From assembly GCA_003249255.1 (NCBI GenBank), contig QKJP01000008.1, positions 1 to 64,000 of the forward strand: a DNA stretch of 64,000 nt, given 5' to 3'. The translations under genes were made by a program, and so were the position numbers. The DNA is from Bacteroidales bacterium. Lineage in GTDB: Bacteria; Bacteroidota; Bacteroidia; Bacteroidales; Marinilabiliaceae. Below, piece by piece: positions 7,455-23,512 of this stretch. Below the pieces are notes generated by a model. It had not been told where the DNA came from and ran no database searches. It saw nothing but the letters and a program-made list of their open reading frames with translations. The first letter of the stretch is position 1. The number at the start of each line of letters is the position of its first letter.

Positions 7455-8118
7455 TCACATGTGGGTGTGTGCAACATATAGTACGGTATTTAGTAAAAAG
7501 CGATATTTTTTATTGTGAAATCTTGGCGGAACAACACATAATTGATATCCCGATGTTTTCAATACCACTATAGAAGCCAAATGGGTTGATATGAAAATTT
7601 CCATGATGCAAAGACGACGTGTGCACAATTCTTTATAGTTTGATTTAACTTATAATTGTGGAGTGAAAACAGAAGCCTTTTCTGATCTTAATTACGGTGC
7701 TGATAGAATTAGAGCATTTGGGGTTATAACTACAACTTTAAGTTCGGTACAGTTTATGGCTAGATATGGAGAGTGAGTGATTGATGGAATATGAAGGATG
7801 TGTCCGTATGTTTAAATTTGAAGGAGGAAGTCTCCGCAAATAGTTTAATGAATCATCTAATATGGTTGTAGTTATCAATTGAAATGATTGTGTGAAGTTG
7901 AAATTGATAACTGGTTAATATCAGCTAGTCGATTGAAGAATATAGCTTTTTTATATAAAGACAGTGCTTTATCTAGTTTTACCCTGAATATAACTTGCAT
8001 TATTTCAGATTTTTGCTAAAAAAATAGTTGGGTTGGTAATTCTTTTCTACGCCAATTAACTTAAAAATTATTCTATATTATGTAAATTGAGGTTTTCAAT
8101 GTAATAATCAAAAATTAT
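7455..8118. other. Intergenic region with possible coding debris
   Basis: This AT-rich stretch separates the RelA/SpoT-domain gene from the CRISPR locus. Short plus-strand pieces such as DLNYGADRIRAFGVITTTL (about 7689-7745) look protein-like but are stopped on both sides and I cannot name them. No RNA gene or clear promoter is visible. Confidence 0.4.
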
Positions 8119-9036
8119 ATGGAAGATCAACACAAGCTTCAACGTTTATTAGAGATGCTGCTTTACTTGTCAAGCGGTATAAAATATAGCCGGGAAGAAA
8201 TAGCCAAGCGTTTTGATATGGCCGAACGAAGTGTTTATCGTTACATAAAGACTTTTAGAGAGGCGGGTTTTATTATTCCACAACCACTCGATGGTTTGTA
8301 TTATATTGATAAACAAAGTCCTTACTTTAAAGAGATTGACGAGTTACTGCATTTTTCTAAAGAAGAGGCTTACATACTTCAAAAAGCCATTCATAGCATT
8401 AGCAACGAAAACCTCTTAAAGCAGAAGCTGGTTAATAAACTCTATTCTCTTTACAATACAGAAGGGGTTGCAGAAACCATCTTTAAAGCAGAATACAGCA
8501 ACACTATCCATCAACTTAAAAATGCCATAGAGAAAAAGCAAAGAGTCATCTTGTGTGATTATGCTTCGGCCAACAGTAACAACAAGCAAGATCGCTTAGT
8601 AGAACCCTTTGAGTTTACCTCTAACTTTATTGCTGTTTGGGCTTACGATGTGGAGAATAAGTGCTGCAAACAGTTTAAGAATACCCGCATCGATTCGGTT
8701 AAAATACTTTCTGATACGTGGGAGTACGAGCAAGAACATATTCCGGTACAAACCGACGTATTTAGAATTAGTTCTGAAGAAAATATTCCCATAAAGCTTA
8801 AGTTAAGTCTAAGAGCTACAGAGTTATTAAAAGAGGAGTATCCTCTGTCTGAAAAACATATACGTATGGTTGAAGATAACGAATATTACTTCGAAGCATC
8901 GGTTTGTGGTTTCGAAGGAGTAGGGCGTTTTGTGATGGGACTTTCGCATGAAATGGAAGTGATTTATCCCACAGAACTAAAGGATTTTATTAAAAAGAGG
9001 GCAGAAAAAATTTTGAGTGACGGAAGTTGGCAGTAG
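8119..9036 (+). CDS. WYL-domain transcriptional regulator of the CRISPR locus
   Basis: The 305-residue protein has an N-terminal winged helix-turn-helix (REEIAKRFDMAERSVYRYI, residues 21-39) and a central WYL domain (EPFEFTSNFIAVWAYD, about 156-171), followed by a C-terminal extension. WYL regulators often control defence loci and sense nucleic acid or nucleotide ligands. It is the first gene of the CRISPR operon, with the HIRAN gene beginning just after or overlapping its end, so it probably autoregulates the locus (inference). The usual W-Y-L triad is degenerate here, read as I-A-V-W-A-Y, so ligand binding may differ. Confidence 0.8.
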   Translation: MEDQHKLQRLLEMLLYLSSGIKYSREEIAKRFDMAERSVYRYIKTFREAGFIIPQPLDGLYYIDKQSPYFKEIDELLHFSKEEAYILQKAIHSISNENLLKQKLVNKLYSLYNTEGVAETIFKAEYSNTIHQLKNAIEKKQRVILCDYASANSNNKQDRLVEPFEFTSNFIAVWAYDVENKCCKQFKNTRIDSVKILSDTWEYEQEHIPVQTDVFRISSEENIPIKLKLSLRATELLKEEYPLSEKHIRMVEDNEYYFEASVCGFEGVGRFVMGLSHEMEVIYPTELKDFIKKRAEKILSDGSWQ

Positions 9037-9073
9037 TATGTTTTTCCTTTATGCTAAACAAAAACTTTATGCT

Positions 9074-9451
9074 ATGGAACGAAAACATTTTGCCCACTTT
9101 ACCATTGCCGGTTTTACTTATTACGATGGTTGCATTGCTTTTAACAAACTAAAAATTGGAAAGAAATTATTGCTTAAAACCGAACCTCGAAATAAGTACG
9201 ACGACCATGCTGTGGCGATATATTACAAAGACTTAAAGCTTGGTTTTATTCCACGAGAATACAACAAGCATATTTTTGCCATACTCGAAACCGGTGCAGA
9301 TGTGTTTGAAACACGCATACAACGCTTAACACCTGATGAGCATCCCGAAGAACAGGTGCAAGTAGTGGTGTATACGAAGGTGGAGAAGGGTAATGAAATA
9401 GATTTAAGAAAGGATTTGCGGGATGATAAAATTAGGGAATTAGAGAATTAG
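9074..9451 (+). CDS. HIRAN-domain protein within the CRISPR locus
   Basis: The core GFTYYDGCIAFNKLKIGKKL, then EPRNKYDDHAVAIYY and LGFIPREYN, is a HIRAN domain. In HLTF-type proteins this domain binds 3' ends of single-stranded DNA at damaged or stalled forks. Here it stands alone. I choose ATG 9074 (MERKHFAHFTIAG), which places the domain at the start; ATG 9038, 1 bp after the upstream stop, or GTG 9017 are alternatives. The last residues (KIRELEN) are encoded by a dispersed repeat (9431-9470), so the natural C-terminus may have been replaced. Position between regulator and cas6 suggests a DNA-end role in interference or adaptation (inference). Confidence 0.75.
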   Translation: MERKHFAHFTIAGFTYYDGCIAFNKLKIGKKLLLKTEPRNKYDDHAVAIYYKDLKLGFIPREYNKHIFAILETGADVFETRIQRLTPDEHPEEQVQVVVYTKVEKGNEIDLRKDLRDDKIRELEN

Positions 9452-9470
9452 AAAATGAGATAAATTTTAG
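9431..9470. repeat. Dispersed repeat family B, copy 1 (half-element)
   Basis: AT-rich motif reading GGAATTAGAGAATTAGAAAA and then TGAGAT, shared with the longer palindromic copies at 16790-16876 and 18968-19065. It overlaps the 3' end of the HIRAN gene, supplies its stop codon and fills the gap to cas6. Confidence 0.5.
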
Positions 9471-9474
9471 CTAA

Positions 9475-10272
9475 ATGAGAATAAAATTAACACTTAACCG
9501 CACCACAAAGCAACGAATGTTGCCTATGGATTACCAGTACTTTATAAGTGCATGGATTTATAAAGTACTTAAACAAGCCGATGCCGAATTTGCAGAGTTC
9601 CTGCATGAGAAAGGTTATGGAAACAGCGATACTAAACTATATAAGCTGTTTTGCTTTTCGCGCTTAAACTTTGGTAAGCCAATATTACATAATGAACAAA
9701 AGTTGTTTGAGATAAAAACGCAAGAGGTAGAATTGCAGATAGGTTTCGATGTACCCGAAGCGGCATCAAACTTTGTACGAGGCTTGTTTATGCAGCAAGA
9801 GTTTTATTTGGGCAATAAATTTAACGGTATAGACTTTACAGTAACTAAAGTAGAATCTTTAGCGGAACCTGAATTTACTAAAACCATGAATTACCGCCTA
9901 CAAACTCCATGGGTGGTGAGTTACAGGACACCTGAAGATAAATATGCACAGTACCTAAAGCCGGAGCATGAATTGTTTCAGGAGCTTTCGATTAAGCACC
10001 TTTTGGAAAAATACAAAAATACCAAGACTGAAATATTACCTGAATTACCATTGGATTTTAAGCCTGAAAGCCAATACAAAAGAGGTGGATTCTTGGTTAA
10101 AAACGGTACCGGCAAACAGACCAGAGTTGTTGGTAACATGTTTGATTTTACACTAAATGCTCCTGTAGAAATACACAAAATGCTTTGGAATGCAGGTGTA
10201 AGTGAGAAGAGTAGTAGTGGGTTTGGGTGGTGTGAAATTAGACAGGATTTACAGGATGAAATTAATATATAG
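9475..10272 (+). CDS. cas6: CRISPR-associated endoribonuclease Cas6
   Basis: Cas6 cuts the repeat RNA of the precursor transcript to give crRNAs with an 8-nt 5' handle (here ATTGAAAT). The 265-residue protein has the RAMP fold signs: an N-terminal strand (MRIKLTLNRT), a helix with a candidate catalytic His44 (FAEFLHEKGYG), the early FSRLNFG segment, and the C-terminal glycine-rich loop GVSEKSSSGFGWCEI. The final residues RQDLQDEINI are encoded by a dispersed repeat (10240-10265). It precedes cas8b by 34 bp in the operon. Confidence 0.9.
   Translation: MRIKLTLNRTTKQRMLPMDYQYFISAWIYKVLKQADAEFAEFLHEKGYGNSDTKLYKLFCFSRLNFGKPILHNEQKLFEIKTQEVELQIGFDVPEAASNFVRGLFMQQEFYLGNKFNGIDFTVTKVESLAEPEFTKTMNYRLQTPWVVSYRTPEDKYAQYLKPEHELFQELSIKHLLEKYKNTKTEILPELPLDFKPESQYKRGGFLVKNGTGKQTRVVGNMFDFTLNAPVEIHKMLWNAGVSEKSSSGFGWCEIRQDLQDEINI
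10240..10265. repeat. Dispersed repeat family A, copy 1 (half-element, coding)
   Basis: AGACAGGATTTACAGGATGA, the left arm of the family A palindrome seen in full at 17430-17491 and 17871-17933. It lies inside the 3' end of cas6 and encodes its last residues. Confidence 0.6.
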
Positions 10273-10306
10273 AAAAATTTAGCCTAAACATATAGCTTAA
10301 CCAAAT

Positions 10307-11710
10307 ATGAAAAACGAGAACATAAATAAGGAATGGTTAATAAAACCAACCGGTGACCCTTTTGCCGATGTTGGCGGATATGTAATAGAGTATCTACAAC
10401 AGCGGGAACCGGATAAAAGTATTTTAGAGTTAATTGAAGATATAGCAAAATTGTATGTACATAGCTGGGATGCTAAGCTAAATGCATTTTTTCTAAATTC
10501 TAAAATCACTCAGGCTGCATTTAAAACAGACAAAAAAATTAGTGAGACAATAAAGTATTTCAGTAACCTTATCAACAATAAGGAGCAATCTGTTAAAGGT
10601 CATTGCCGTTTATCAGGGCAAAATACATACCTATTTCAAGCAGGTAGAGATAATTCAATATTGTCCGGTTCAGGAACGTTTGTAAATTTTCATCATTTTT
10701 TTCAGGAAGGGATTATGCTTTCTAAAGAAATGTTGATTCGAATGTACTTTGTGCCATTAGGAACGGTATCAATTCAAGGACGAATTGCAGTTATAAAGTC
10801 AAATATTCATGAAGTTACAAAGCATTATGTGTTTGAAAATGTCAGGAATAATCTTCATAAGGTAGGAACTAATACTGAAGATGTCGGGGTTATTAAATCG
10901 GAGTTTAGTAATCCTGCAAATGCCTTGTTTTCTTTTGTTGATGACGTTATTTATAAAGCAAAACTTTATAATGAAAACCAACAACCAATTTCTTTATCGT
11001 TATTGCATTTTACAAACTTTGGCGCAAGTCCGGAGGTTACGGTATATATCCTTCCGGCACTTGTGTTTAGGTTTTATTCAATTTGCACTCGTGGTGAATA
11101 TCTAAAGGATTGGAATTATTTTGTTCGGTCTCATTATTATAATTCCGGTCAAAAAGGAGCATTGTATAATCCAAAGTCAGATTGTTTTGAATTAGAGAAG
11201 AAAGGAAATATAAATTCAACTTCGTTTGAAGACTATAAAAGCTGGACAAATTTCATTTACAAAAAACTTCTTTCCGGAGAATCGATACTTAAAGAATTCC
11301 TGCGATGGTCTCGAAAACATAAAATGAACATTAAAATAATTGAAGCCTATCAAATAAATATTGGACAAATGAAGAAAGAAACAATTCAAAAAATTAAACA
11401 AATGGCCGACTTCATTACACAAAGTGAAAATGAAGATGTAATTAAAAAGAGTATCCGGGCTTTAGATGGAGCCAGAAATCCTGCAATGTTGCGACGCTTT
11501 ATCATTAAGGGATTAATTGCTGAAAACTATAAGAATAATAACGAAGAACCTATTGTGTCGTTAGAAGATTACACCAATTATTTATTTCCCGATGGAAATT
11601 CATGGCAGGAAATAAGGGATATGCTAATAATTGCCATTTACCAAAAAATGCATGAATTAAACCTTAATATAGAAATTGAACTTGAAGAAGAATTAGAAAA
11701 TCAAAATTAA
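10307..11710 (+). CDS. cas8b: Type I-B Cascade large subunit Cas8b (Cst1-like)
   Basis: The 467-residue protein fills the large-subunit position between cas6 and cas7 and resembles Cas8b1/Cst1. The N-terminal part begins with WLIKPTGDPFADVGGYVIEY and contains the segment HCRLSGQNTYLFQAGRDNS, then FHHFFQEGIMLSKEMLIRMYF. I do not see the two CXXC pairs of the original Cst1 family, as is usual in divergent members. It recognises the PAM and recruits Cas3 in type I-B. An acidic tail (ELEEELENQN) ends the protein. It is 11 bp from cas7. Confidence 0.8.
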   Translation: MKNENINKEWLIKPTGDPFADVGGYVIEYLQQREPDKSILELIEDIAKLYVHSWDAKLNAFFLNSKITQAAFKTDKKISETIKYFSNLINNKEQSVKGHCRLSGQNTYLFQAGRDNSILSGSGTFVNFHHFFQEGIMLSKEMLIRMYFVPLGTVSIQGRIAVIKSNIHEVTKHYVFENVRNNLHKVGTNTEDVGVIKSEFSNPANALFSFVDDVIYKAKLYNENQQPISLSLLHFTNFGASPEVTVYILPALVFRFYSICTRGEYLKDWNYFVRSHYYNSGQKGALYNPKSDCFELEKKGNINSTSFEDYKSWTNFIYKKLLSGESILKEFLRWSRKHKMNIKIIEAYQINIGQMKKETIQKIKQMADFITQSENEDVIKKSIRALDGARNPAMLRRFIIKGLIAENYKNNNEEPIVSLEDYTNYLFPDGNSWQEIRDMLIIAIYQKMHELNLNIEIELEEELENQN

Positions 11711-11721
11711 CAATACCCAAT

Positions 11722-12786
11722 ATGGAAAATTTAAAAACTCAAGGATTTGTCCTTTTAGATGTTGATGTAGTAGCATTAAATAATGCAGGTAAAAACACTA
11801 CAAGTAATTTCGATAATGCAGTAGCTACCAAAAGTGTATATAAAAATGGGCGTAAGTATGTGTATGTTTCCGGTCAGGCTTGGCGTTACTGGTGGAGAGA
11901 AGCGTTGCAAAAGAACTGTGGTTGGGAATTATCGCCTGTTATTCGAGAAAGTAAAATTGCGTTTACAAATGCTAATCCTATTAAATATGCAGATGATGAT
12001 GTTTTTGGATATATGCGTGCAGCGTCTGAAGAAATTGAAGAAAAGGGTAAAAAGAAAAAGGTAAATATTACGGTTACACGTGTATCTCCACTTAAAAATT
12101 CAGCTGTAGTTTCTGCTTCGTCTGTTAGTCCGTCAGAAAATTGGTCTAGCATGGCAAGACAGGAAGGTGACTCAGTACCATATAGTAAACAAGAGTACAG
12201 TGCTATTATGAAAGGTATGTTTAGTCTTGACTTGGCACAGGTTGGAACATTTGCAAATTATAATAAAACCGGATATGTAAATTTATCAGAAAGCTTAAAG
12301 GAAGAAGCCGTAAAAGCCGGAGCTGAGTTAGTTGATGACCCTTTTGTGAAAAATGAAAAAGGGGAACCGCAAAAGTTAATTCAACTTAAAAAAGAGGAAA
12401 GAATAAGCAGAGCGAAAGATACCATTCAAGCATTAAAATATATTTCGGGTGGGGCTATGCAAACTAATAATATGGGAGATGTAACCCCAAAGTTCATTAT
12501 TTTGGCAACTACCAACACCGGTAATCATCCGTTTTCGCATGTTATTAAAAGTACTGGAGTAAGAGACGAAGAAGCAGTTTTGAATGTTGAAGGAATTGAA
12601 GAAGTGCTGAAAGAATACAAAGACACTTTTAAAGGAAATGTATTTATTGGCATTAGAAGTGGTTTTATGGATTCAGAAAAAGAGAATCTTCAAAATATTG
12701 AGAAAGCTTTCGATTTTGTTAAGTTGGGTTCAGTTAATGAAATGATTGATTTATACTGCAAGCAATTAGAAACTCAAATGAATTAG
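11722..12786 (+). CDS. cas7: Cascade backbone subunit Cas7 (Cst2/DevR)
   Basis: The 354-residue protein starts with KTQGFVLLDVDVVALNNAGK, matching the Cst2/DevR-type Cas7 start, and continues with KYVYVSGQAWRYWWREAL, a well-conserved block of this family. Several Cas7 copies line the crRNA in Cascade. The charged region around EEIEEKGKKKKVNITVTRVS corresponds to the thumb or insertion. The gene overlaps nothing and ends 1 bp before cas5, as expected for a tightly coupled operon. Confidence 0.92.
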   Translation: MENLKTQGFVLLDVDVVALNNAGKNTTSNFDNAVATKSVYKNGRKYVYVSGQAWRYWWREALQKNCGWELSPVIRESKIAFTNANPIKYADDDVFGYMRAASEEIEEKGKKKKVNITVTRVSPLKNSAVVSASSVSPSENWSSMARQEGDSVPYSKQEYSAIMKGMFSLDLAQVGTFANYNKTGYVNLSESLKEEAVKAGAELVDDPFVKNEKGEPQKLIQLKKEERISRAKDTIQALKYISGGAMQTNNMGDVTPKFIILATTNTGNHPFSHVIKSTGVRDEEAVLNVEGIEEVLKEYKDTFKGNVFIGIRSGFMDSEKENLQNIEKAFDFVKLGSVNEMIDLYCKQLETQMN

Positions 12787-12787
12787 A

Positions 12788-13462
12788 ATGGAAGCATATA
12801 GAGTAAAAATAAGCTCATGGACTTCCGGCTTTCGTTATCCAAATCTTATTTCGGGATATCAGCCTACACTTGAAGTGCCGCCAATTAGTACTGTTCTTGG
12901 TTTGATTAATGCCGCTTCCGGTACTTATTTGAATTTTTCGGGTGAGCAGATAGGGTATTATTTCGAGTATGATATTAAAGGAGTTGATTTGGAAACTATT
13001 TATCAAGTAGAAAGGCATAAAACGCAAGCATATCCTTTAAACAAAGCAAAATCGAACGTAATAAACCGTGAGTTTTTATTTGATTGCAGTCTGTATGTGT
13101 ATTTGACCAATGAAGAATATGTAAGTTACTTGGAAAATCCTTATTATTCCTTGGTACTAGGGCGAAGTAGTGATTTAGCAACCATTGATAAAATTGAAAA
13201 AGTAAATATTAAAGAAGTTGCAAATGCTTCGAAAATTAAAGGACAAGTAATTCCTTTTGAAGATAACTTTTTGCCCGGGGAAATTCAGGCATTGCCCAAA
13301 TACTTTACGAATACAATACCTCGTAACAATTTAGGAACGGAAGCCTTTTCGGTAATATCATGCAAGGCAGGTGATATGAATACAAATCTAAATGCCTATA
13401 CCGATGAATTGTCAGAAGGCAAAGAATTACATATTTACATGCATCAATTAAATAATATCTGA
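12788..13462 (+). CDS. cas5: Cascade subunit Cas5 (Cas5b/Cas5t type)
   Basis: Cas5 caps the 5' handle of the crRNA in Cascade. The 224-residue protein begins MEAYRVKISSWTSGFRYPN, the standard Cas5 N-terminal strand with an SW/F motif, followed by PTLEVPPISTVLGLINAASG, the conserved helix of Cas5t/Cas5b proteins. Length is normal. It is 1 bp from cas7 and 2 bp from cas3, so translation is probably coupled. Confidence 0.9.
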   Translation: MEAYRVKISSWTSGFRYPNLISGYQPTLEVPPISTVLGLINAASGTYLNFSGEQIGYYFEYDIKGVDLETIYQVERHKTQAYPLNKAKSNVINREFLFDCSLYVYLTNEEYVSYLENPYYSLVLGRSSDLATIDKIEKVNIKEVANASKIKGQVIPFEDNFLPGEIQALPKYFTNTIPRNNLGTEAFSVISCKAGDMNTNLNAYTDELSEGKELHIYMHQLNNI

Positions 13463-13464
13463 TT

Positions 13465-15711
13465 ATGGAGTTGTTAGCAAAGTCAGAACCGAGAGTTTTA
13501 TTAAAACAACACATCAATGATGGGTTATTAATAGTTGAGGAATTAAAAAAATGTATCCCATCTGTTGATGGTTCCGACTTTTATGAGATATTAAAATTGT
13601 GTGTAATATTTCATGATATTGGTAAATCACATACCGAATTTCAAAAAAAGTTACTTGGGGAAAATAATTCATGGCATTTTCAACGTCATGAATTGTTTTC
13701 AATTCCCTTCATTGATAATCTGACTATTGATGATTCGTTGAAGCAACTTATAAAGCTTATTGTTGCAGGCCACCACAAGGATTATTCTACACTTTTTAAA
13801 TTTATTGATAAGAATTACCAAACAGGAGAACCGGATGCTTTGGGCTTTGAGTTTGAAGTAGATGAAAAAAAAGATTTTAAAAAGGAGTTTGAAGGTTCAA
13901 TATTATCAGAACGCGCCTTATCCGTTTTAAAAGAATTTGATATTGAATTATTTCTTAAAGAAATTCAGTTGCCTTTAAACCTTATTCGTAACTATTTGAG
14001 AGTTCCGACAAAAAAGCATAATGCTGAATTTATTAAGCTTTTAACTCTTTCGGGAGCTTTTAAACAATGCGACCATTTATCGTCAGGTATGGTAAAACAT
14101 CTTGAAACTTTAGAAGCTAAAGATTTCGACTTTCTATATTCTACCAAGTATGATTTCTATACTCATCAAATACAATCATCACAGACCATTGATAATGTAA
14201 TTTTAACTGCCCCAACCGGTTCCGGTAAAACAGAAACTTCATTCCTGTGGCTCAAAAATCAAATTGAAAATTTCGGACAAGGCAGAGTTTTCTACATTTT
14301 GCCATATACCGCATCAATAAATGCAATGTATGAACGGCTTAATAAAGACATAAACAGTAATGTCGAAAAAGTTGGTTTAGTACATGGGAAATTGGCTGAA
14401 TATATTGAGAATAAGTTTTCTGACGACGATTATATCGAGAAAAAGAATTTAATTGAGACGTATAAAACGTTAGTCACTCCGGTAAAAGTTACAACCCCGT
14501 TCCAGTTACTTAAACATATTTTTGGCCTCAAAGGATTTGAGAAAGGAATATTTGAATGGTGTGGCGGTTATTTTATTTTCGATGAAATACATGCATATAA
14601 TCCGGCAGTATTTGCACAAATAAAAGTGTTACTTGAGTTTGCAACCCAAAACTTAAATACAAAAGCGTTTGTAATGACGGCAACAATGCCCAAGTTTTTA
14701 AAAGAAGAACTAGAAGCTTCGCTTGAGTCAAAGGTGGAAATTTGTGCATCAAACAATCTTTATGAAAGCTTTACAAGACATAGGGTAAATGTACATTCCG
14801 GTTTGTTAACTGAAAACCTTAATGAAATACAGAATTCAATAAATTCCGGAATGAAGGTATTGGTTGTTTGTAATACTGTTAAGAATGCTCAATTAGTTTA
14901 CAATCAAATAAACTGTAGTTCAAAAACTCTTTTGCACAGTGCTTTTAATAGTATAGACAGGTATAAAAATGAAGAACAAGTACAACAAGATGATAATCAG
15001 TTGTTGGTTGGGACACAAGCAATAGAAGTTAGTCTCGATATTGACTATGATGTAATTTATACCGAACCGGCTCCTTTAGATGCCCTCATACAAAGATTTG
15101 GGAGGGTAAATAGAAAAAGACAAAAAGGTATTTCTTCTTGCGTTGTATTTGACGAAAGAAACAAAACAGATAAATACATTTATAAAAATGAAAATGTAAT
15201 CACACGAACATTAGAGGTTTTAAAATCAATTGAAGCCAATTTTGACGGAGTAATAAAAGAAATTGAATTACAGAAGTATATTGATTTTGTTTATCCACAG
15301 TGGGATGTGAATGATAAGGAAGAATTTGAAAGAGTTTATAAAAATTTATCCTATTTCATAGAAAATGATTTACATCCTTTTATGTCTTCAAAGATGAAAG
15401 AAGATGAGTTTTACGAACAGTTTGATGGTGTAAAAGTATTGCCGGTATCATTAGAATGTGATTATGTAAATTTTATAAATCAAGGTTATATCCAAAAGGC
15501 AGAAGCCTTAAAAGTTCAAATTTCTGAAAAGCGTTTTTTGCAATTGTTTTATAACGAGGGTGTCAGTAAAGAAAGAACAGTTTTTGAAATAATGGAATCA
15601 AAAAAAATAAAAGAGTTGTCATATTATTTGGTGAATCGAAAATATACGGGTGAATTAGGATTGGAGATTGATGTAGAGGAGGATAGTTGTAATTCTAATA
15701 CTATGTTGTGA
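13465..15711 (+). CDS. cas3: CRISPR-associated nuclease-helicase Cas3 (HD + DExH)
   Basis: Cas3 unwinds and degrades target DNA after Cascade binding. The 748-residue protein has an N-terminal HD nuclease domain with H50-D51 (VIFHDIGKSHTEF), H75 (FQRHE) and H103-H104 (AGHHKDY). The helicase part carries Walker A APTGSGKT (249-256), DEIH (373-376), TAT (405-407) and motif VI QRFGRVNR (543-550). All key residues are present, so the enzyme should be active. It starts 2 bp after cas5. The 3' end is followed by a family A repeat half-element. Confidence 0.95.
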   Translation: MELLAKSEPRVLLKQHINDGLLIVEELKKCIPSVDGSDFYEILKLCVIFHDIGKSHTEFQKKLLGENNSWHFQRHELFSIPFIDNLTIDDSLKQLIKLIVAGHHKDYSTLFKFIDKNYQTGEPDALGFEFEVDEKKDFKKEFEGSILSERALSVLKEFDIELFLKEIQLPLNLIRNYLRVPTKKHNAEFIKLLTLSGAFKQCDHLSSGMVKHLETLEAKDFDFLYSTKYDFYTHQIQSSQTIDNVILTAPTGSGKTETSFLWLKNQIENFGQGRVFYILPYTASINAMYERLNKDINSNVEKVGLVHGKLAEYIENKFSDDDYIEKKNLIETYKTLVTPVKVTTPFQLLKHIFGLKGFEKGIFEWCGGYFIFDEIHAYNPAVFAQIKVLLEFATQNLNTKAFVMTATMPKFLKEELEASLESKVEICASNNLYESFTRHRVNVHSGLLTENLNEIQNSINSGMKVLVVCNTVKNAQLVYNQINCSSKTLLHSAFNSIDRYKNEEQVQQDDNQLLVGTQAIEVSLDIDYDVIYTEPAPLDALIQRFGRVNRKRQKGISSCVVFDERNKTDKYIYKNENVITRTLEVLKSIEANFDGVIKEIELQKYIDFVYPQWDVNDKEEFERVYKNLSYFIENDLHPFMSSKMKEDEFYEQFDGVKVLPVSLECDYVNFINQGYIQKAEALKVQISEKRFLQLFYNEGVSKERTVFEIMESKKIKELSYYLVNRKYTGELGLEIDVEEDSCNSNTML

Positions 15712-15730
15712 TTTCCCATAATTTAAATCC

Positions 15731-15751
15731 CGTTAATCCTGTCCAAATCCT
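15731..15751. repeat. Dispersed repeat family A, copy 2 (half-element)
   Basis: CGTTAATCCTGTCCAAATCC is the right arm of the family A palindrome (compare 17871-17933). It lies between cas3 and the YggL-like gene. Confidence 0.5.
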
Positions 15752-15766
15752 AAAAAAACATCCCCC

Positions 15767-16078
15767 ATGAAAAAACGCCTCCGCAAAAAACTCCACAAAG
15801 GAGAATTTCAAGAATTTGGTTTTTCCATTAAAGGAGAATTTAATCAAGAGTTATCTACGGATGAACTTCATGAATTTACGGCCAATTTAGACGAACTGGA
15901 AGATGAAAAGTTCATTCATTTCGATGGCGGTTTTGATCCCAAGAGGTTTAGCTGGTTTGTTTCTCGTTATCGGGGCAGTTTCACGCCAGAAGAAGGGTTC
16001 GAAATAGAGAAATGGTCTAAAGATCATCCACAGGTAAAAGTAGTAAAAGCAGAACCCTTAGTTGACGCATGGTATTGA
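15767..16078 (+). CDS. YggL (DUF469)-like 50S ribosome-binding protein
   Basis: The 103-residue protein starts KKRLRKKLHKGEFQEFGFS, which matches the highly conserved start of the YggL/DUF469 family (KRLRKKLH-EFQELGF). E. coli YggL binds the large ribosomal subunit. The rest (DGGFDPKRFSWFVSRYRG and a C-terminal segment VVKAEPLVDAWY) fits family length. It lies in the same direction between cas3 and cas4, with repeats on the cas3 side, so it may be a passenger of the locus. I know of no described role in CRISPR immunity. Confidence 0.8.
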   Translation: MKKRLRKKLHKGEFQEFGFSIKGEFNQELSTDELHEFTANLDELEDEKFIHFDGGFDPKRFSWFVSRYRGSFTPEEGFEIEKWSKDHPQVKVVKAEPLVDAWY

Positions 16079-16185
16079 TAACCATTGAAAATAGTAAATT
16101 TGTGAATTGGATCATTAGAAACGATTCCCATTTACTCTAATCGTTAAAAAAATGATAACAAAAGATAAAATGATAATAGAAAAAT

Positions 16186-16773
16186 ATGTTAGTAAGTAGT
16201 AGCACCTATCAGTTTAAGGTTCAAATTAAAGGAATAACACAACCACCGGTTTGGCGAAGAATAATTATGCCGGCAGAGGCCTCGTTTATCGACTTTCATC
16301 ATGCCATACAAGTTTCATTCGGATGGCATAATGCACATTTATATGAGTTTGCAGATAAATCATTTGGGTATGGACTTAGTATAAAAGAACCTAATGAATT
16401 TGATGATGAGTTTGAGTACAGTGATGTAAGAGATGCTGCATCAACTCCATTGTCTTCTGTCTTCTTAAAAGAAGGTGATAAATTAATTTATGTTTATGAT
16501 TTTGGAGATAGTTGGGAACATAAAATCACCTTAGAAAAAATTGCAGAAGAATCTATAGAAAAACCAAACTGCATTGCCGGAAAAGGTAAATGTCCGCCCG
16601 AAGATTGTGGTGGTATAGGTGGGTATGCCTATATGAAACATGTTTTGGTTGACAAGTCTCATGAAGAACATGATACTTTTTTAGAATGGTTAGGACTTGA
16701 TGACGGCAGTGATTGGAACCCTCATGAATTTAATGTAGTAGATGCACAAAAAATGCTAAATAATGTATTTTGA
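16186..16773 (+). CDS. Plasmid pRiA4b ORF-3-like protein
   Basis: The 195-residue protein shows the PF07929 signature: FKVQIKGITQPPVWRRI, then FIDFHHAIQVSFGWHNAHLYEF, then VYDFGDSWEHKITLE, then CPPEDCGGIGGY. The family occurs on plasmids and near mobile DNA; its biochemical role is not known to me. Conserved His, Asp and Cys residues (HNAHL, DFGDSWEH, C-PPEDC) suggest metal binding (inference). It is the second non-Cas gene between cas3 and cas4, followed by a family B palindromic repeat. Confidence 0.8.
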   Translation: MLVSSSTYQFKVQIKGITQPPVWRRIIMPAEASFIDFHHAIQVSFGWHNAHLYEFADKSFGYGLSIKEPNEFDDEFEYSDVRDAASTPLSSVFLKEGDKLIYVYDFGDSWEHKITLEKIAEESIEKPNCIAGKGKCPPEDCGGIGGYAYMKHVLVDKSHEEHDTFLEWLGLDDGSDWNPHEFNVVDAQKMLNNVF

Positions 16774-16789
16774 CAACTGTGGTTATTAG

Positions 16790-16876
16790 GAAGTTAGAGA
16801 GTTGGGGGACTGAAAAAATGATTCTCACACTCTCAAATTTTCAATTTCCCAATTCACCACCTCACTAACTCACCAC
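16790..16876. repeat. Dispersed repeat family B, copy 2 (palindromic)
   Basis: GGAAGTTAGAGAGTTGGGGG at the left is answered on the right by TCTCAAATTTTCAATTTCCC, AATTCACCACC and TCACTAACTC. It is a diverged inverted repeat filling the gap between the pRiA4b ORF-3-like gene and cas4. Confidence 0.5.
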
Positions 16877-16878
16877 CT

Positions 16879-17385
16879 ATGCACCTAACCGGAACCCATT
16901 TCAACTACTATCTTGTGTGCAAGCGTAAACTTTGGCTTTTTGCTAACAGCATACAAATGGAACATACATCAGATCTTGTATACGAAGGAAAAATCATTCA
17001 TGAGAAAAGTTATCCTCAACGGGCTAATAAATACAAAGAAATTGAACTCGAGGGTATTAAAATTGATTTTTACGACACTAAGAATAAGCTCATTCACGAA
17101 ACCAAGAAGTCAAGAAAAGAGCACGAGTCACATGTTTGGCAATTAAAGTATTATATCTACAGGCTTCAGGAAGCAGGAATTGAAGAAGCATCCGGACTAT
17201 TAGAATATCCTAAAGAACGACAAACAGAAGAAGTTCTATTAAGTATGCCGGATAGAGAGAGAATTATTGAGATAGAATCTGAGATAAAAGAGATAATGCA
17301 TTCAGAACAATGTCCACCGGAAATAAACGCTCCCAAATGTAAAAAGTGCAGTTATTTCGATTTTTGTTATGCAATAGAACTGTAG
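16879..17385 (+). CDS. cas4: CRISPR adaptation exonuclease Cas4
   Basis: Cas4 trims prespacers and selects PAM-correct ends. The 168-residue protein has the iron-sulfur cluster cysteines C14 (YYLVCKRKLW) and C154, C157, C163 (KCKKCSYFDFC), and a RecB-type nuclease core with D63 (IKIDFYD) and E74-x-K76 (IHETKKS), then QLKYYIYRL, the QhxxY-like helix. The early motif FNYYLVCKRKLWLF is typical of Cas4a proteins. It is flanked by family B and family A repeats rather than fused to cas1. Confidence 0.92.
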   Translation: MHLTGTHFNYYLVCKRKLWLFANSIQMEHTSDLVYEGKIIHEKSYPQRANKYKEIELEGIKIDFYDTKNKLIHETKKSRKEHESHVWQLKYYIYRLQEAGIEEASGLLEYPKERQTEEVLLSMPDRERIIEIESEIKEIMHSEQCPPEINAPKCKKCSYFDFCYAIEL

Positions 17386-17429
17386 AAAAAATATCGAACC
17401 ATTCTGAATGAATATGTAAATATAAAAGT

Positions 17430-17491
17430 AGACAGGATTCACAAGATTTACAGGAAGAAAGGGAATCATGTTAATTCTGTAATTCCTGACT
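17430..17491. repeat. Dispersed repeat family A, copy 3 (palindromic)
   Basis: Left arm AGACAGGATTCACAAGATTT and right arm TGTTAATTCTGTAATTCCTG form an imperfect inverted repeat. Copies with this acaggatt/aatcctgt pattern occur in many unrelated bacteria. It marks the upstream side of the GxxExxY gene. Confidence 0.6.
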
Positions 17492-17510
17492 AAACCATTT
17501 TACCTAGTTT

Positions 17511-17900
17511 ATGATAAATGAAGATTTAACTAAAAAAATAATCAAGTGTGCCTATACAGTGCACAACACCTTAGGTTCCGGTTTTCTAAAAAAAGTATAC
17601 GAAAATGCACTTTCAATAGAATTGAAGAAGGCTGGTTATAAGGTTCAAACACAATACCCTATATCTGTTTATTATGATGATGAAGTATTAGTTGAGTTTT
17701 ATGCAGATGTGTTAGTCGAAGATGTTATAATATTGGAATTAAAAGCAGTATCAGAAATTTCCAAGATTCATGAAGTACAATTGGTTAATTATCTTAAAGC
17801 TACAGGAAATGATTTAGGATTGCTTATAAATTTTGGAGAATCTGTTCAAGTAAAAAGGAAATATAAAAATAGACAGGATTCACAGGATTTCACACGATGA
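17511..17900 (+). CDS. GxxExxY protein (PD-(D/E)XK-like)
   Basis: The 129-residue protein belongs to the GxxExxY family (PF13366). The start VHNTLGSGFLKKVYENAL aligns with the family motif, but the Glu is Lys27 here (G24-F-L-K27-K-V-Y30). The putative nuclease residues remain: D66 (FYADVLV) and E76-x-K78 (ILELKAV). The last residues, RQDSQDFTR, are encoded by repeat copy 4, so the normal end may be altered. The gene is bracketed by two family A repeats between cas4 and cas1 and looks like a repeat-flanked passenger. No function is established for the family. Confidence 0.8.
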   Translation: MINEDLTKKIIKCAYTVHNTLGSGFLKKVYENALSIELKKAGYKVQTQYPISVYYDDEVLVEFYADVLVEDVIILELKAVSEISKIHEVQLVNYLKATGNDLGLLINFGESVQVKRKYKNRQDSQDFTR

Positions 17901-17933
17901 AAGCCAATCTTGTTAATCCTGTAAATCATGTCT
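17871..17933. repeat. Dispersed repeat family A, copy 4 (palindromic, partly coding)
   Basis: Left arm AGACAGGATTCACAGGATTT, right arm GTTAATCCTGTAAATCATGT. The left arm overlaps the 3' end of the GxxExxY gene and provides its last codons and stop. Confidence 0.65.
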
Positions 17934-17958
17934 GAAAAAAAGAAAGGCAACTTAAGTA

Positions 17959-18963
17959 ATGAAAAAGACCTACTACCTATTCAATCCCGGGCAATTGTCT
18001 CGCAAAGACAATACACTCAAATTTACAGCTTTCGATAAAGAAGGAATGGAGCAAAAGCCACGTTACCTTCCTGTAGAAAACGTAGACGAACTATATGCGT
18101 TTGGAGCCCTAGATGCCAATTCAGCTTTATATAACTTTTTGGGCAAACAGCAAGTGCCGGTTCATTTCTTCGACTATTACGAAAATTATACCGGCTCCTT
18201 TATGCCTCGCGATGCCTTAATAAGTGGAAAAGTTTTGATGGCACAAGCCCGATGCTACGATAATAATCAAAAGCGCCTTACGGTTGCTCGATTAATATTA
18301 GATGGAGCAGTGCATAATATGCTAAAGAATTTGAAGTATTATGACAACAGGGGGAAAGACCTTCAGCCAATAATTGAATTGATAGAAGGCTATCATGCGA
18401 ATTTCGAATCTGTTAAGAAAATAGAAGAATTAATGGGTTTAGAAGGTAATATTCGTAAGACCTACTATGAAGGCTTCGAATTAATACTAAATGATTTTTC
18501 AATGAATGGACGTAGTATGCGTCCGCCACAAAACGAAGTAAATGCCCTTATTTCATTTGGGAATATGATGTGTTACAGTCAATGCATAAGAGCTATACAC
18601 CAAACACAGTTGAACCCGACCATTTCATTTTTACATGCACCGGGTGAGCGACGTTATTCTTTGGCCTTAGATGTTGCCGAAATATTTAAGCCCATATTGG
18701 TAGATAGGGTGATATTCAAAGTGTTAAATAAGAAAATGTTGTCGGATAAAGATTTTGAACCGGGAATCAACAAAGTGCTCTTAAAAGAGGGCGGGAAGAA
18801 GACTTTTGTGCAGGCTTTCGAAAACAGGTTAACTGAAACTATTCAGCATCGAAGTTTAAATAGAGCAGTAAGTTATAAGCATTTGATTAAGTTGGAATGC
18901 TACAAAATAATTAAACATATATTGGAGATTGAAGAATATAAACCATTGAAGATGTATTGGTGA
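17959..18963 (+). CDS. cas1: CRISPR adaptation integrase Cas1
   Basis: Cas1 inserts new spacers at the leader end of the array. The 334-residue protein has the N-terminal beta domain (YYLFNPGQLSRKDNTL, VPVHFFDYYENYTGSF) and the alpha-helical catalytic domain with E162 (LEGNIRKTYYE), H226 (FLHAPGERRYSL) and D238/E241 (ALDVAEIFKP). This is the subtype I-B form of Cas1 as judged by the early FNPGQLSRK-like segment. All metal ligands are present. The gap to cas2 is taken up by a family B palindrome. Confidence 0.95.
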   Translation: MKKTYYLFNPGQLSRKDNTLKFTAFDKEGMEQKPRYLPVENVDELYAFGALDANSALYNFLGKQQVPVHFFDYYENYTGSFMPRDALISGKVLMAQARCYDNNQKRLTVARLILDGAVHNMLKNLKYYDNRGKDLQPIIELIEGYHANFESVKKIEELMGLEGNIRKTYYEGFELILNDFSMNGRSMRPPQNEVNALISFGNMMCYSQCIRAIHQTQLNPTISFLHAPGERRYSLALDVAEIFKPILVDRVIFKVLNKKMLSDKDFEPGINKVLLKEGGKKTFVQAFENRLTETIQHRSLNRAVSYKHLIKLECYKIIKHILEIEEYKPLKMYW

Positions 18964-18967
18964 AAAG

Positions 18968-19065
18968 GAACTAGAATTTGAAAATGAGGGAATTAGAAAA
19001 TGATTTACAATTCCTACATTTCCACATTTTCTAATTCCCCAATTCACGCATTCTCAAATTTTCAC
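18968..19065. repeat. Dispersed repeat family B, copy 3 (palindromic hairpin)
   Basis: A perfect 14-bp stem (GGAATTAGAAAATG with CATTTTCTAATTCC) encloses a loop of about 22 nt; outer parts (TTTGAAAATGAG with CATTCTCAAATTTTC) extend the inverted repeat. It lies between cas1 and cas2 and ends a few bases before the cas2 start. Confidence 0.65.
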
Positions 19066-19068
19066 AGG

Positions 19069-19332
19069 ATGTACGTAATAGCAATGTATGATGTAGGACA
19101 AAAGCGAGTAGGAAAGATGCTAAAACTTTGTCGTAAATACTTAAACTGGATACAGAATTCGGTATTTGAAGGAGAGATATCTGAAGTAAAATTAATCGAA
19201 CTAAAATCCTTAGCATCCGGTATAATGGATGAAAAAACTGATAGCTTGATTATTTTTAAGACTCGGAATGAAAAATGGCTCGACAAGGAAATAGTAGGAA
19301 AAGAAAGGGGAGAAGTAGATAATTTCTTATAA
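19069..19332 (+). CDS. cas2: CRISPR adaptation protein Cas2
   Basis: The 87-residue protein begins MYVIAMYDVGQKRVGKML, the ferredoxin-like strand with the conserved Asp8 of Cas2. ATG 19069 is chosen because it gives the family's standard start; a longer frame from 19000 would read through the family B repeat and adds a nonsense leader. Cas2 bridges two Cas1 dimers in the integration complex. The array leader starts directly after the stop. Confidence 0.93.
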   Translation: MYVIAMYDVGQKRVGKMLKLCRKYLNWIQNSVFEGEISEVKLIELKSLASGIMDEKTDSLIIFKTRNEKWLDKEIVGKERGEVDNFL

Positions 19333-19553
19333 ACTTTGTCGATGATGCTTTTTATATGAAAAACTTTAGAAGCATCATCATGCAGATATCTCCCAAAAGT
19401 TCTTTGACGTATTGAAAATGAGTTATTTATTTTGGGGTGTCGAAGGAGGGGGTAAATCGTATAATTATACATCGACAACTTTTTGTTTTAAAATGTAAAG
19501 ATATTAGCTCTGAAAGCCTTATTTTTACATTGTTTTTATAGCCGTTTTAACGA
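19333..19553 (+). promoter_or_regulatory. CRISPR leader region
   Basis: This AT-rich segment separates cas2 from the first repeat. It holds an inverted repeat (GATGATGCTT at 19341-19350 with AAGCATCATC at 19370-19379) and the sequence GTTCTTTGACGTATTGAAAA (19399-19418), a string I recall near other Bacteroidota CRISPR arrays and rRNA leaders. Leader position fits the repeat orientation and the fact that the only mutated repeat lies near the far end of the array. The transcription start is not evident. Confidence 0.6.
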
Positions 19554-22500
19554 CTCTTAATCGTACCATAGTGGAATTGAAATGAAGAAAAATGGACAAA
19601 GCACTAAAGAAGGATATAGACTCTTAATCGTACCATAGTGGAATTGAAATTGATTTGAGCATCTAGGTCAAATGCTGTTCTCGCTTCTCTTAATCGTACC
19701 ATAGTGGAATTGAAATCAGGCTACCAATAGATGTTATCCCGTCTGACAATACTCTTAATCGTACCATAGTGGAATTGAAATGTTACGAAACAAATAGGAG
19801 ATCAACAAGTAGCAAACCTCTTAATCGTACCATAGTGGAATTGAAATATTGTGGTTCGCGATAAGAAGTTGAATGAATATCTGACTCTTAATCGTACCAT
19901 AGTGGAATTGAAATATTCGATGCCGATGCAGTAGCGGGTAGAAATATCTTACTCTTAATCGTACCATAGTGGAATTGAAATTGAGATTGTCGACTGTTTT
20001 GCCTTCAAAATTTAATCCTCTTAATCGTACCATAGTGGAATTGAAATCCGCTAAGTCTTTAAGGTGTTCATATCCATACATCCTCTTAATCGTACCATAG
20101 TGGAATTGAAATACCCTACTCTGTACTTTACGCTTATTGTTAATGTTTCTCTTAATCGTACCATAGTGGAATTGAAATTCCAATATCGTAGTCTTTTGCA
20201 TCTGTATGCGCTCTTCTCTTAATCGTACCATAGTGGAATTGAAATTTATTAGTATGATCGTTTCGATCCGTCCATTTATGATCTCTTAATCGTACCATAG
20301 TGGAATTGAAATAACTTGCTTAGATATGTTTACAATTACCGTAGTCCCCTCTTAATCGTACCATAGTGGAATTGAAATCGTGTAACAAAAAATTGTTTCT
20401 AAGTTTTTTAAGTATCTCTTAATCGTACCATAGTGGAATTGAAATGCAAAAACTCCTATTTTAGACAGTAAGAGGTAGGCCACTCTTAATCGTACCATAG
20501 TGGAATTGAAATCCATTATCAAAACTTATTAAGTTCAGTTTATTTCCTTCTCTTAATCGTACCATAGTGGAATTGAAATATGTGACGGTAATTGATCTCA
20601 AAACGATTTTTAAACCTCTTAATCGTACCATAGTGGAATTGAAATATACATGGAAAGTGTAAAAGATGCGGGCGTGAAAGCTCTTAATCGTACCATAGTG
20701 GAATTGAAATAAATGATTAATAACCGTGCAATAAAAGTAATTTGTACCTCTTAATCGTACCATAGTGGAATTGAAATCTTGAATAGCTGCTAACATGGTT
20801 GCTTTGGTTTGCACTCTTAATCGTACCATAGTGGAATTGAAATTCTATTGTGACACGATCGGTTTTAACAAGATGCAACTCTTAATCGTACCATAGTGGA
20901 ATTGAAATGTGTATTCGCCGTCTTCGTTTTTACGCATCTTGATCTCTTAATCGTACCATAGTGGAATTGAAATGCTTTTACTGTCGAGTAAACTCTCACT
21001 CTCTCCTTTCTCTTAATCGTACCATAGTGGAATTGAAATAAGCAAGGTTATAACGATAACTGGAACGCAGCAGCTCTTAATCGTACCATAGTGGAATTGA
21101 AATCGATGCACAAATTATGGAATTAATCACAGAACGCGCTCTTAATCGTACCATAGTGGAATTGAAATATCTATTTATAATCAAGGAGTTAACGTCCTGC
21201 CACTTCTCTTAATCGTACCATAGTGGAATTGAAATTCATAAAGATAGAATTATACTTTAAACACTGTACTACTCTTAATCGTACCATAGTGGAATTGAAA
21301 TATACAATCAACAATATCGGTAAGATTAAAAAGAATAACTCTTAATCGTACCATAGTGGAATTGAAATTAACTATAGGGCTTTGTAGCACTTCACCTACG
21401 CAATCTCTTAATCGTACCATAGTGGAATTGAAATCTTAGCTAAATTGCTACAAGGCCGAACTTTGATATCTCTTAATCGTACCATAGTGGAATTGAAATT
21501 GCAACAACTGACACATGGAATGTTGGGTATTTCGCTCTTAATCGTACCATAGTGGAATTGAAATTTGTAAATTGAATAAATCTCAGAATCAACACTTAAA
21601 ACTCTTAATCGTACCATAGTGGAATTGAAATTTAATTAGTTCAATGTTTGCGTAAATGTTTAAAATGCCTCTTAATCGTACCATAGTGGAATTGAAATGT
21701 CGATGCTTACAACCATTACCTTGATGCAATCAGGCTCTTAATCGTACCATAGTGGAATTGAAATGTCCAAGTTTCCACCTTTTCCCCCTCCTTTCAGGAC
21801 TCTTAATCGTACCATAGTGGAATTGAAATATCTGTATCTTCTTTAAATTCATTGTCACGAATGAACTCTTAATCGTACCATAGTGGAATTGAAATTGAAA
21901 AGAAACGTAACTGTATTTAATCCTGATGAAACTCTTAATCGTACCATAGTGGAATTGAAATACTCAAAACGATGGCTCCGTAGCTGAAAAAGCACCTACT
22001 CTTAATCGTACCATAGTGGAATTGAAATACATTACCTGTTATTATTCGTTTAGATGGGAATAATTCTCTTAATCGTACCATAGTGGAATTGAAATTGTAC
22101 AGGATATAATACCGATTGATGGGAAGCAATTCTCTTAATCGTACCATAGTGGAATTGAAATCTGTGGAGCAATATTGCAACAATCCCCCTTAAAACCCTC
22201 TTAATCGTACCATAGTGGAATTGAAATATGTAAATTTCTAATGCTTGGATGTCTGTTATAGTCTCTTAATCGTACCATAGTGGAATTGAAATAATGATCT
22301 GAGTAAATGGGATGTGTTATTTATTGATACTCTTAATCGTACCATAGTGGAATTGAAATAACAAGCGGAACCGGTATCATTCACCCCGAAGGTACTCTTA
22401 ATCGTACCATAGTGGAATTGAAATCTCGCACTTAAAATAATAAGCACAAAATTTGCAATTCTCTTAATCGTACCATAGTGGAATTGAAATTCTCAACCCA

Positions 22501-23420
22501 CGCACCGCTATCATCAAGCACTTTACCCTCTTAATCGTACCATAGTGGAATTGAAATTTCTGTACCATCCATCTAAATTAGCAGCAGCTGAATCTCTTAA
22601 TCGTACCATAGTGGAATTGAAATATCATCAATAAAACAATGACTTTTACGGATGATTATCTCTTAATCGTACCATAGTGGAATTGAAATCTAGACATATT
22701 TATTATAACAATACCACCTCCTAAACTCTTAATCGTACCATAGTGGAATTGAAATGTTATCGTTATAACCTTGCTTCGGATTGGCTCTTTCTTCTCTTAA
22801 TCGTACCATAGTGGAATTGAAATTTGTTTATATATATTCTGTTGCAATTTTGAAAATCAGCTCTTAATCGTACCATAGTGGAATTGAAATATTAATCTGA
22901 AACATTAGCTCTATAGTTTAATTGTAACTCTTAATCGTACCATAGCGGAATTGAAATTTGAGGAGGCTAAGGTTGAACCTAATCAAAAAGTCTCTTAATC
23001 GTACCATAGTGGAATTGAAATTCTCGCAATGATTTTTCGATCTCATCCGCGCTTAACCTCTTAATCGTACCATAGTGGAATTGAAATTGCGTTGTTTTAA
23101 TGGATAAATTGGTGTTATAATCGCTCTTAATCGTACCATAGTGGAATTGAAATTATTGCACCTTCGTCGGCATCGGGGCCATCATCGGGTCTCTTAATCG
23201 TACCATAGTGGAATTGAAATATAAAAGCGTATCATAGGTAAAGTCCGTATACCCTAACTCTTAATCGTACCATAGTGGAATTGAAATACTTCTAAACCCA
23301 AGGCGGCTTCTAAACCCAAGGCGCTCTTAATCGTACCATAGTGGAATTGAAATAGCAACGTCTAGTACTTGCCTTTTCTCTTTAGATAGCCTCTTAATCG
23401 TACCATAGTGGAATTGAAAT
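19554..23420 (+). CRISPR. CRISPR array, 59 repeats and 58 spacers (type I-B)
   Basis: By eye I count 59 copies of a 30-bp repeat that begins CTCTTAATCG and ends GGAATTGAAAT, separated by 58 spacers of 34 to 38 nt. First repeat 19554-19583, last 23391-23420. All appear identical except copy 52 (22928-22957), which has CATAGCGG for CATAGTGG. The repeat 3' end ATTGAAAT is a typical type I-B crRNA handle, so transcription is on the plus strand, from the leader beside cas2. Spacer 23 (21040-21073) and spacer 49 (22756-22793) share 21 nt in opposite orientation. Spacer 57 (23288-23323) is an 18-bp tandem duplication. Most other spacers look unrelated and several can be read as open protein-coding frames, as expected for phage or plasmid genes. 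Confidence 0.98.
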
Positions 23421-23512
23421 TTGATAAGTTGGTGTACTTGCCCCACTCAATTCAGCTCAGAAATTTGGCTTGATCCCTTTTTTGCATTTTCTTGCACACT
23501 TTTGCGCAATAA

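Follow-up and report, generated by a model that had tools for sequence, protein, structure and literature searches.

The window analysed here is a stretch of 64,000 nucleotides (nt) from a Bacteroidales bacterium (assembly GCA_003249255.1, contig QKJP01000008.1, positions 1 to 64,000), and it contains a type I-B CRISPR-Cas operon whose gene junctions carry short repeats, described in an earlier note on this DNA as two palindromic families, A and B. We consider it probable that these repeats are arms or remnants of minigene cassettes that are, or once were, mobile and that lie at operon gene junctions. Such a cassette would hold one short gene, encoding either a nuclease-like GxxExxY protein or a four-helix-bundle (IVP) protein, with degenerate units of 7-10 nt in inverted arrays on either side, and would insert mostly in sense orientation at the junctions of existing operons. 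The window would then carry one intact GxxExxY cassette, with its gene-less hairpins and single arms being remnants or non-autonomous copies. This reading is drawn from the bracketing of the genes by arrays, the occurrence of empty and occupied sites, a junction at which one gene class replaces the other, and a bare hairpin in a species whose congeners carry a gene, as well as from sense orientation and purifying selection.

Throughout, coordinates without a label refer to the window, G-numbers are genomes and L-numbers are fetched loci; window features lie on the forward strand unless otherwise stated. The set of relatives comprises 61 genomes and a wider set comprises 296 genomes sampled from the phylum, while the cas comparison set consists of 15 stretches from 14 genomes, among the 22 of the 61 genomes with a Cas1 match. 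The window operon encodes Cas6, Cas7/Cst2, Cas5b, Cas3, Cas4, Cas1b and Cas2 (NCBIfam) as well as Cas8b (PADLOC), and is assigned to type I-B on the presence of Cas8b, Cas7, Cas5b, Cas3 and Cas1b at the locus. Profile matches add HIRAN, YggL-like, PRiA4_ORF3 (pRiA4b) and GxxExxY/PDDEXK_3 genes.

A Probable Intact Cassette Between cas4 and cas1

The intact cassette occupies positions 17425-17940 in the cas4-cas1 gap and reads A array, GxxExxY gene, A array; pairing of its arms is 22.5 kcal/mol stronger than in shuffles. In family A, degenerate 9-nt units based on ACAGGATT are repeated in tandem. The array 5' of the gene (17430-17493) is a weak palindrome in itself (z -0.55, z being the fold strength of an array relative to shuffles), the array 3' of it (17866-17935) is a strong hairpin (z -4.5, folded as 17855-17958), and the gene (17511-17900), identified by its profile scores for TIGR04256 and PF13366 (PDDEXK_3), has its final codons within the downstream array. 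We infer that, as in 23S rRNA intervening sequences, the two arms anneal to each other, either in RNA or in single-stranded DNA, leaving the gene looped out between them; within a transcript such pairing would isolate the insert, and cleavage by RNase III is possible.

Bracketing of GxxExxY Genes Across Genomes

A GxxExxY match is present in 39 of the 61 relatives, in 38 of them above the cut-off. Searching with ACAGGATT alone (up to 3 mismatches) near the first 30 GxxExxY genes of the relatives gave no match; the link between arrays and gene emerged on reading the flanks without a fixed motif, and by eye the 30 fetched flanks in relatives contain inverted arrays of many different motifs. A-type arrays stand beside 10 of the best 80 GxxExxY loci of a scan with one genome per species. 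The record titles of these 80 loci, many of them metagenome-assembled genomes, name Bacteroidetes groups, Ignavibacteriae, Acidobacteria, Planctomycetes groups, Verrucomicrobia, Chloroflexi, Proteobacteria, Nitrospiraceae, Treponema, Propionigenium, Clostridiales, a Methanosarcinales archaeon and others.

The arm score, which is the best local match between the 200 nt upstream of a gene and the reverse complement of the 200 nt downstream, had a median of 24 in 103 GxxExxY loci compared with 11 in 441 control open reading frames (ORFs). The 95% point of the controls was exceeded by 69 of the 103 loci and the 99% point by 45, and 79 exceeded all 30 shuffles (103 of 110 loci were scored, as L064, L068, L076, L080, L084, L088 and L117 have less than 150 nt on one side). 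Held-out loci, which are other gene copies from the same group of relatives, had a median of 21 (40 loci, 21 of them above the 95% point) against 12 in 153 control ORFs, which include cas stretches with their arrays. The array skeleton CRCNRAK, chosen on the loci of the period analysis, occurs three or more times in 54 of 80 held-out GxxExxY flanks and in 4 of 306 control flanks. Folded as RNA, the arms exceed the pairing of shuffles by more than 15 kcal/mol at 60 of 105 loci, compared with 4 of 120 sampled controls. Mean local self-match in the GxxExxY flanks is highest at lags 9-10 (36-nt windows were too coarse for this period analysis, which was repeated with 20-nt windows). Bracketing of GxxExxY genes by inverted arrays is common, not universal. 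The genes also lie preferentially between two same-strand neighbours, at 47 of 60 scored loci compared with 219 of 399 ORFs (p 3.5e-4; 68 of 80 loci could be placed, and 8 of these were omitted as distant from a neighbour).

The GxxExxY Protein

The window protein scores 138.6 bits against a cut-off of 35 for TIGR04256 and 136 against a cut-off of 22 for PF13366, placing it in both families. Residues D66, E76 and K78, corresponding to the PD-(D/E)XK pattern, are invariant in 11 aligned sequences, and structure comparison returns nuclease folds: the best Foldseek matches of the AlphaFold2 model (mean predicted local distance difference test score 91) are 4ic1 (listed as SSO0001, which we take to be a Cas4), lambda exonuclease, LHK-Exo and A. 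fulgidus Hjc, with E-values from 2e-4 to about 1e-2. On this model, GxxExxY is predicted to be a PD-(D/E)XK nuclease-like protein with a Cas4-like fold. A sequence search of the PDB with the protein found no relative (best E 1.4), and PADLOC gave no match to it. A nuclease resembling Cas4, lambda exonuclease and Hjc may act on the paired DNA arms and promote copying of the cassette into a new junction.

Four-Helix-Bundle Genes in the Same Layout

Among the 441 control ORFs, ranks 3 to 5 by arm score were taken by four-helix-bundle genes (PF05635, 23S_rRNA_IVP), which are present in 49 of the 61 relatives. Their loci have a median arm score of 19, with 13 of 29 above 19 (30 were fetched; L190 was left out because of runs of N), and a self-match peak at lag 7. 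The GxxExxY array skeleton reaches three hits in none of 58 four-helix-bundle flanks, and unit length tracks gene class, being 9-10 nt beside GxxExxY and 7 nt beside four-helix-bundle genes. The two gene classes have a common layout with a different motif. All 24 scored four-helix-bundle genes lie between same-strand neighbours (28 of 30 loci were used, 4 being omitted as distant from a neighbour), some of these coming from one operon sampled in several species and therefore not independent. By eye, the four-helix-bundle genes at L176, L177, L179, L185, L187 and other loci adjoin apparent histidine biosynthesis genes, which are possibly a second insertion hot spot.

Two further candidates were considered. 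Family B as a marker of the four-helix-bundle kind was followed with GAATTNGAAAATG, which was found in 54 of the 61 relatives, and no link was established. PRiA4_ORF3 as a third cassette gene was dismissed with 1 of 27 loci above a score of 19 (30 were fetched and 3 skipped as too short).

Empty, Occupied, and Exchanged Junctions

A junction between two methylmalonyl-CoA mutase genes shows the pattern outside cas operons. The start of the large subunit gene was located in 51 of the 61 genomes and 30 of the loci were fetched, of which 19 could be parsed (in the other 11 the end of the upstream gene was not located). Two of these junctions are empty (8 and 14 nt), 8 hold a GxxExxY gene, 7 a four-helix-bundle gene and 2 a bare hairpin; among the GxxExxY genes, that of G003 is truncated, that of G007 matches in two pieces and that of G023 is apparently shifted near its end. 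Within genus g5, a 121-nt bare hairpin in G005 has nearly the same arms that enclose a gene in G023 and G032, while of three species in genus g3 one carries a truncated GxxExxY gene, another a four-helix-bundle gene and the third a bare hairpin. Considering the gene-bearing congeners with similar arms, a bare hairpin can be a gene-deleted cassette, and by analogy the hairpins of the window may be gene-deleted cassettes as well. At this junction dN/dS (the ratio of non-synonymous to synonymous substitution) is 0.08 for the only GxxExxY pair that is far from saturated, and likewise 0.08 for one four-helix-bundle pair.

Similar diversity is found in the cas operons themselves. In 12 compared stretches cas4 adjoins cas1. 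The gap is plain in G059 (5 nt), G041 (7 nt), G031 (23 nt), G003 (32 nt) and G008 (68 nt). In G020 it holds a GxxExxY gene together with A-type arrays, G018 and G011 have four-helix-bundle genes there, and arrays or partial arrays with no recognised gene are present in G009, G028, G025 and G052, the array of G052 being of family A. Outside these stretches, Spirosoma arboris HMF4905 (L087) matches the window in gene order, with a GxxExxY gene between two A arrays placed after cas4 and ahead of cas1 and cas2. The cas1-cas2 gap, readable in 11 stretches, measures 2 nt in G031, 3 nt in G041, 5 nt in G059 and 14 nt in G003; it spans 62-66 nt with no clear array in G008, G020 and G025, holds arrays in G018, G011 and G049, and in G009 is occupied by arrays and a four-helix-bundle gene. 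As cas4, cas1 and cas2 adjoin each other free of repeats in relatives, their order is independent of the repeats, and the same gaps hold different inserts. A Y1-transposase-like ORF (L206:10451-11080, 23.8 bits against a Pfam cut-off of 23) was seen in the cas6-cas8b gap of G003.

These gaps bear directly on the proposal of the earlier note that the repeats mark joints between functional modules, which we now regard as highly improbable. Copies do lie between functional groups; however, cas4, cas1 and cas2 are neighbours without repeats in G031, G059, G041 and G003, other species have different arrays in the same gaps, and cas3 and cas4 of G003 are separated by a plain gap of 67 nt. The cas3-cas4 interval was compared with G003 and G018 alone, cas3 being diverged in most other operons. 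What survives of the proposal is a partial exception, the yggL-like and PRiA4_ORF3 genes between cas3 and cas4 (15767-16773), which have no match in the 15 compared cas stretches and, judged by this comparison, are an extra segment, preceded by an A arm and followed by a hairpin.

Remaining Repeat Copies and Array-Encoded C-termini

All four copies of family A listed in the earlier note were found, and the placing of the repeats at gene junctions was borne out, as was their absence from the cas8b-cas7-cas5-cas3 core, where gaps are 1-11 nt. Their description as palindromes held in part. The seven named sites comprise three strong hairpins (at 16784, 17866 and 18968), one weak palindrome (17430) and three single arms (9431, 10240 and 15726) whose folding is no stronger than that of shuffles. 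The single arms are an A arm at 10240-10262 that encodes the tail of Cas6 (z +1.4), an A arm at 15726-15744 on the reverse strand in the cas3-yggL gap (z +0.3) and a B arm at 9431-9465 that encodes the end of the HIRAN protein (z +0.9). Family B has 8-nt units and was confirmed at 9431 and in the cas1-cas2 gap, where its hairpin (18968-19065; z -4.8 for 18960-19072) is missing from the abutting cas1 and cas2 genes of G031, G059, G041 and G003. The third copy assigned to it, at 16790, corresponds to a hairpin of 8-nt units in the pRiA4b-cas4 gap (16784-16870; z -3.5 for 16774-16880), which is B-like but does not contain the B sequence ggaattagaaaatg. A weak B-like arm 5' of pRiA4b (16092-16121) forms an inverted repeat with it, being 70% complementary to 16838-16867.

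In the genome both families recur beyond chance: ACAGGATTNACAGGAT, allowing up to one mismatch, has 31 genome matches, 6 of them in this locus, and GAATTAGAAAATG has 6, with 3 in this locus, whereas both reversed patterns have none. Judged by eye, most ACAGGATTNACAGGAT sites outside the locus are part of a longer resident element whose constant flanks are missing from the cas copies. This palindromic element is built around a core of ACAAGATTAACAGGATTTACAAGAT, with GCTTTTAAGACAAG and ATGTGGTTAAACTCTG among its constant flanks, and was seen by eye on contigs C9, C22, C27, C37, C51, C55, C66 and others of G000 (L009-L030).

It is conceivable that selection maintains the hairpins for a regulatory role in the cas operon, in which they would signal mRNA processing or stability and so determine protein ratios; the three strong hairpins do lie in transcribed gaps. 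We find this very unlikely, given that related cas operons have no hairpins or have unrelated arrays in the same gaps, that three of the named sites are one arm with no hairpin, and that no Rfam match was obtained within 8000-23500.

The HIRAN, cas6 and GxxExxY genes do end inside a repeat, as had been noted, so that all three C-termini are encoded within array sequence. The window Cas6 ends in ...GFGWCEI-RQDLQDEINI, and the tail RQDLQDEINI is missing in the Cas6 homologs of all 7 relatives (8 rows, G028 occurring twice). Five of these (G003, G018, G028, G009 and G031) match the window up to approximately GFGW and differ beyond it, while G059 and G041 are more distant. An insertion close to a stop codon would produce such array-encoded C-termini. 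The HIRAN protein (9074-9448) resembles the C-terminal part of the PADLOC candidate family PDC-M03B (E 1.9e-20). Following cas2 is a CRISPR array (19554-22500) in which the repeat CTCTTAATCGTACCATAGTGGAATTGAAAT occurs at least 37 times.

Arrays Without the Gene and Other Counterevidence

Several observations weigh against the cassette reading. The arm score does not exceed the control 95% point in 34 of the 103 GxxExxY loci and in 19 of the 40 held-out loci. In the window copy the signature reads GFLKKVY, with K for the signature E that is retained in the other 10 aligned members; judged from this residue the window protein may be catalytically weakened, and the copy in the cas4-cas1 gap of G020 has the signature E. 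Family B is tied to the four-helix-bundle kind by unit length alone, in two relatives. At the mutase junction, third-position divergence of the inserted gene keeps step with that of the neighbouring gene which, together with the low dN/dS, indicates long residence of a protein under selection and gives no evidence of recent movement. Finally, arrays occur without the gene: G052, of the same order, has 270 exact A pairs (ACAGGATTNACAGGATT) and low-scoring GxxExxY matches, none above the cut-off, no GxxExxY gene was matched in G209 despite 43 array hits, and 13 of 57 array-positive genomes have no GxxExxY match. In the viewed loci of G052 (L321 and L326-L350 in part), copies of ACAGGATTNACAGGATT are mostly intergenic. 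As G052 and G209 are array-rich with no intact GxxExxY detected, they argue against a simple version in which a cassette's own nuclease acts on its arms; either loss of the gene followed the spread of the arrays, or some other factor moves them. Across the wider set, in which 152 of the 296 genomes have a GxxExxY match, the gene is nonetheless found in 44 of 57 array-positive genomes versus 108 of 239 others (p 9e-6, uncorrected for descent).

Arrays in genomes without an intact GxxExxY gene would also be expected if they were non-autonomous repeats akin to repetitive extragenic palindromic (REP) sequences or miniature inverted-repeat transposable elements that a common enzyme, for instance a Y1 or REP-associated tyrosine transposase (RAYT), had spread, with the minigenes as cargo between copies. 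A layout common to two unrelated gene families is in keeping with this, as are the Y1_Tnp matches obtained for 15 of the 16 tested genomes and the Y1-like ORF of G003, which is barely above the cut-off. Among the scanned locus proteins no RAYT gene was found, and 4 Y1_Tnp matches lie elsewhere in the genome. We consider this explanation unlikely. The Y1 counts (0-5 per genome) do not track array number in these 16 genomes, and no clear relation emerged for a Y1 transposase as the driver of the arrays; the tracking of gene class by unit length is not predicted by chance cargo, and PRiA4_ORF3, a third small accessory gene, is unbracketed.

Relation to Known Systems

GxxExxY is a family name without a function and the name is scarce in the open-access literature searched, where 2 papers use it, PMC8934634 among them. 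A single hairpin-cassette layout would offer a testable role for the GxxExxY and IVP families and a possible origin for many unnamed intergenic palindromes. It also advises caution, as GxxExxY or IVP genes within cas operons need not be CRISPR parts. No description of GxxExxY bracketing was found in open-access PMC text, and the sole published link found is a 2013 report of 18 IVP genes in cas loci, I-B included, presented as a function observed in CRISPR-Cas loci (PMC3936711). The passage concerned does not mention repeats, whereas the IVP genes studied here are bracketed by arrays and occur in non-CRISPR operons also; as far as that passage goes, the report fits the insertion reading.

REP/RAYT systems (REPtrons) and TIRtrons are similar in having intergenic palindromes around a small gene and gene-less copies elsewhere, as described in a passage of PMC3733652. 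However, the cassette gene is not a tyrosine transposase, the units are tandem and of 7-10 nt, and no consistent GTAG/CGTC tag marks one end (by eye, GTAG precedes 1 of 4 A copies, that at 17430). Cas4, lambda exonuclease and Hjc share fold likeness with the GxxExxY model, although GxxExxY is smaller than Cas4 and TM-scores are modest (approximately 0.42-0.58 on the query).

The layout also resembles that of the rRNA intervening sequence (IVS) with its S23p/IVP ORF, which is described as a sporadic insert with complementary, stem-forming ends around a short ORF (PMC4990558, PMC11270868), ORF-less forms being described in the latter. The window cassette likewise has complementary ends around a short ORF, and the four-helix-bundle genes match the same Pfam family, 23S_rRNA_IVP. 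On the other hand, the cassette lies between the protein genes cas4 and cas1 and not in an rRNA gene, which accords with the Rfam result above, its arms are degenerate tandem arrays, and a nuclease-like GxxExxY class is carried as well. By analogy, the cassette could be said to work like an rRNA IVS, not to be one. We offer tentatively, as possible rather than probable, a broad class of operon-junction cassettes, in which a Cas4-like GxxExxY gene or an IVP/bAvd four-helix-bundle gene would sit in paired arrays of class-specific unit length, enter in the sense orientation, be exchanged at a junction and leave bare hairpins behind, with the product acting on its own arms; some orphan palindromes would be its debris and the rRNA IVS would be a special case.

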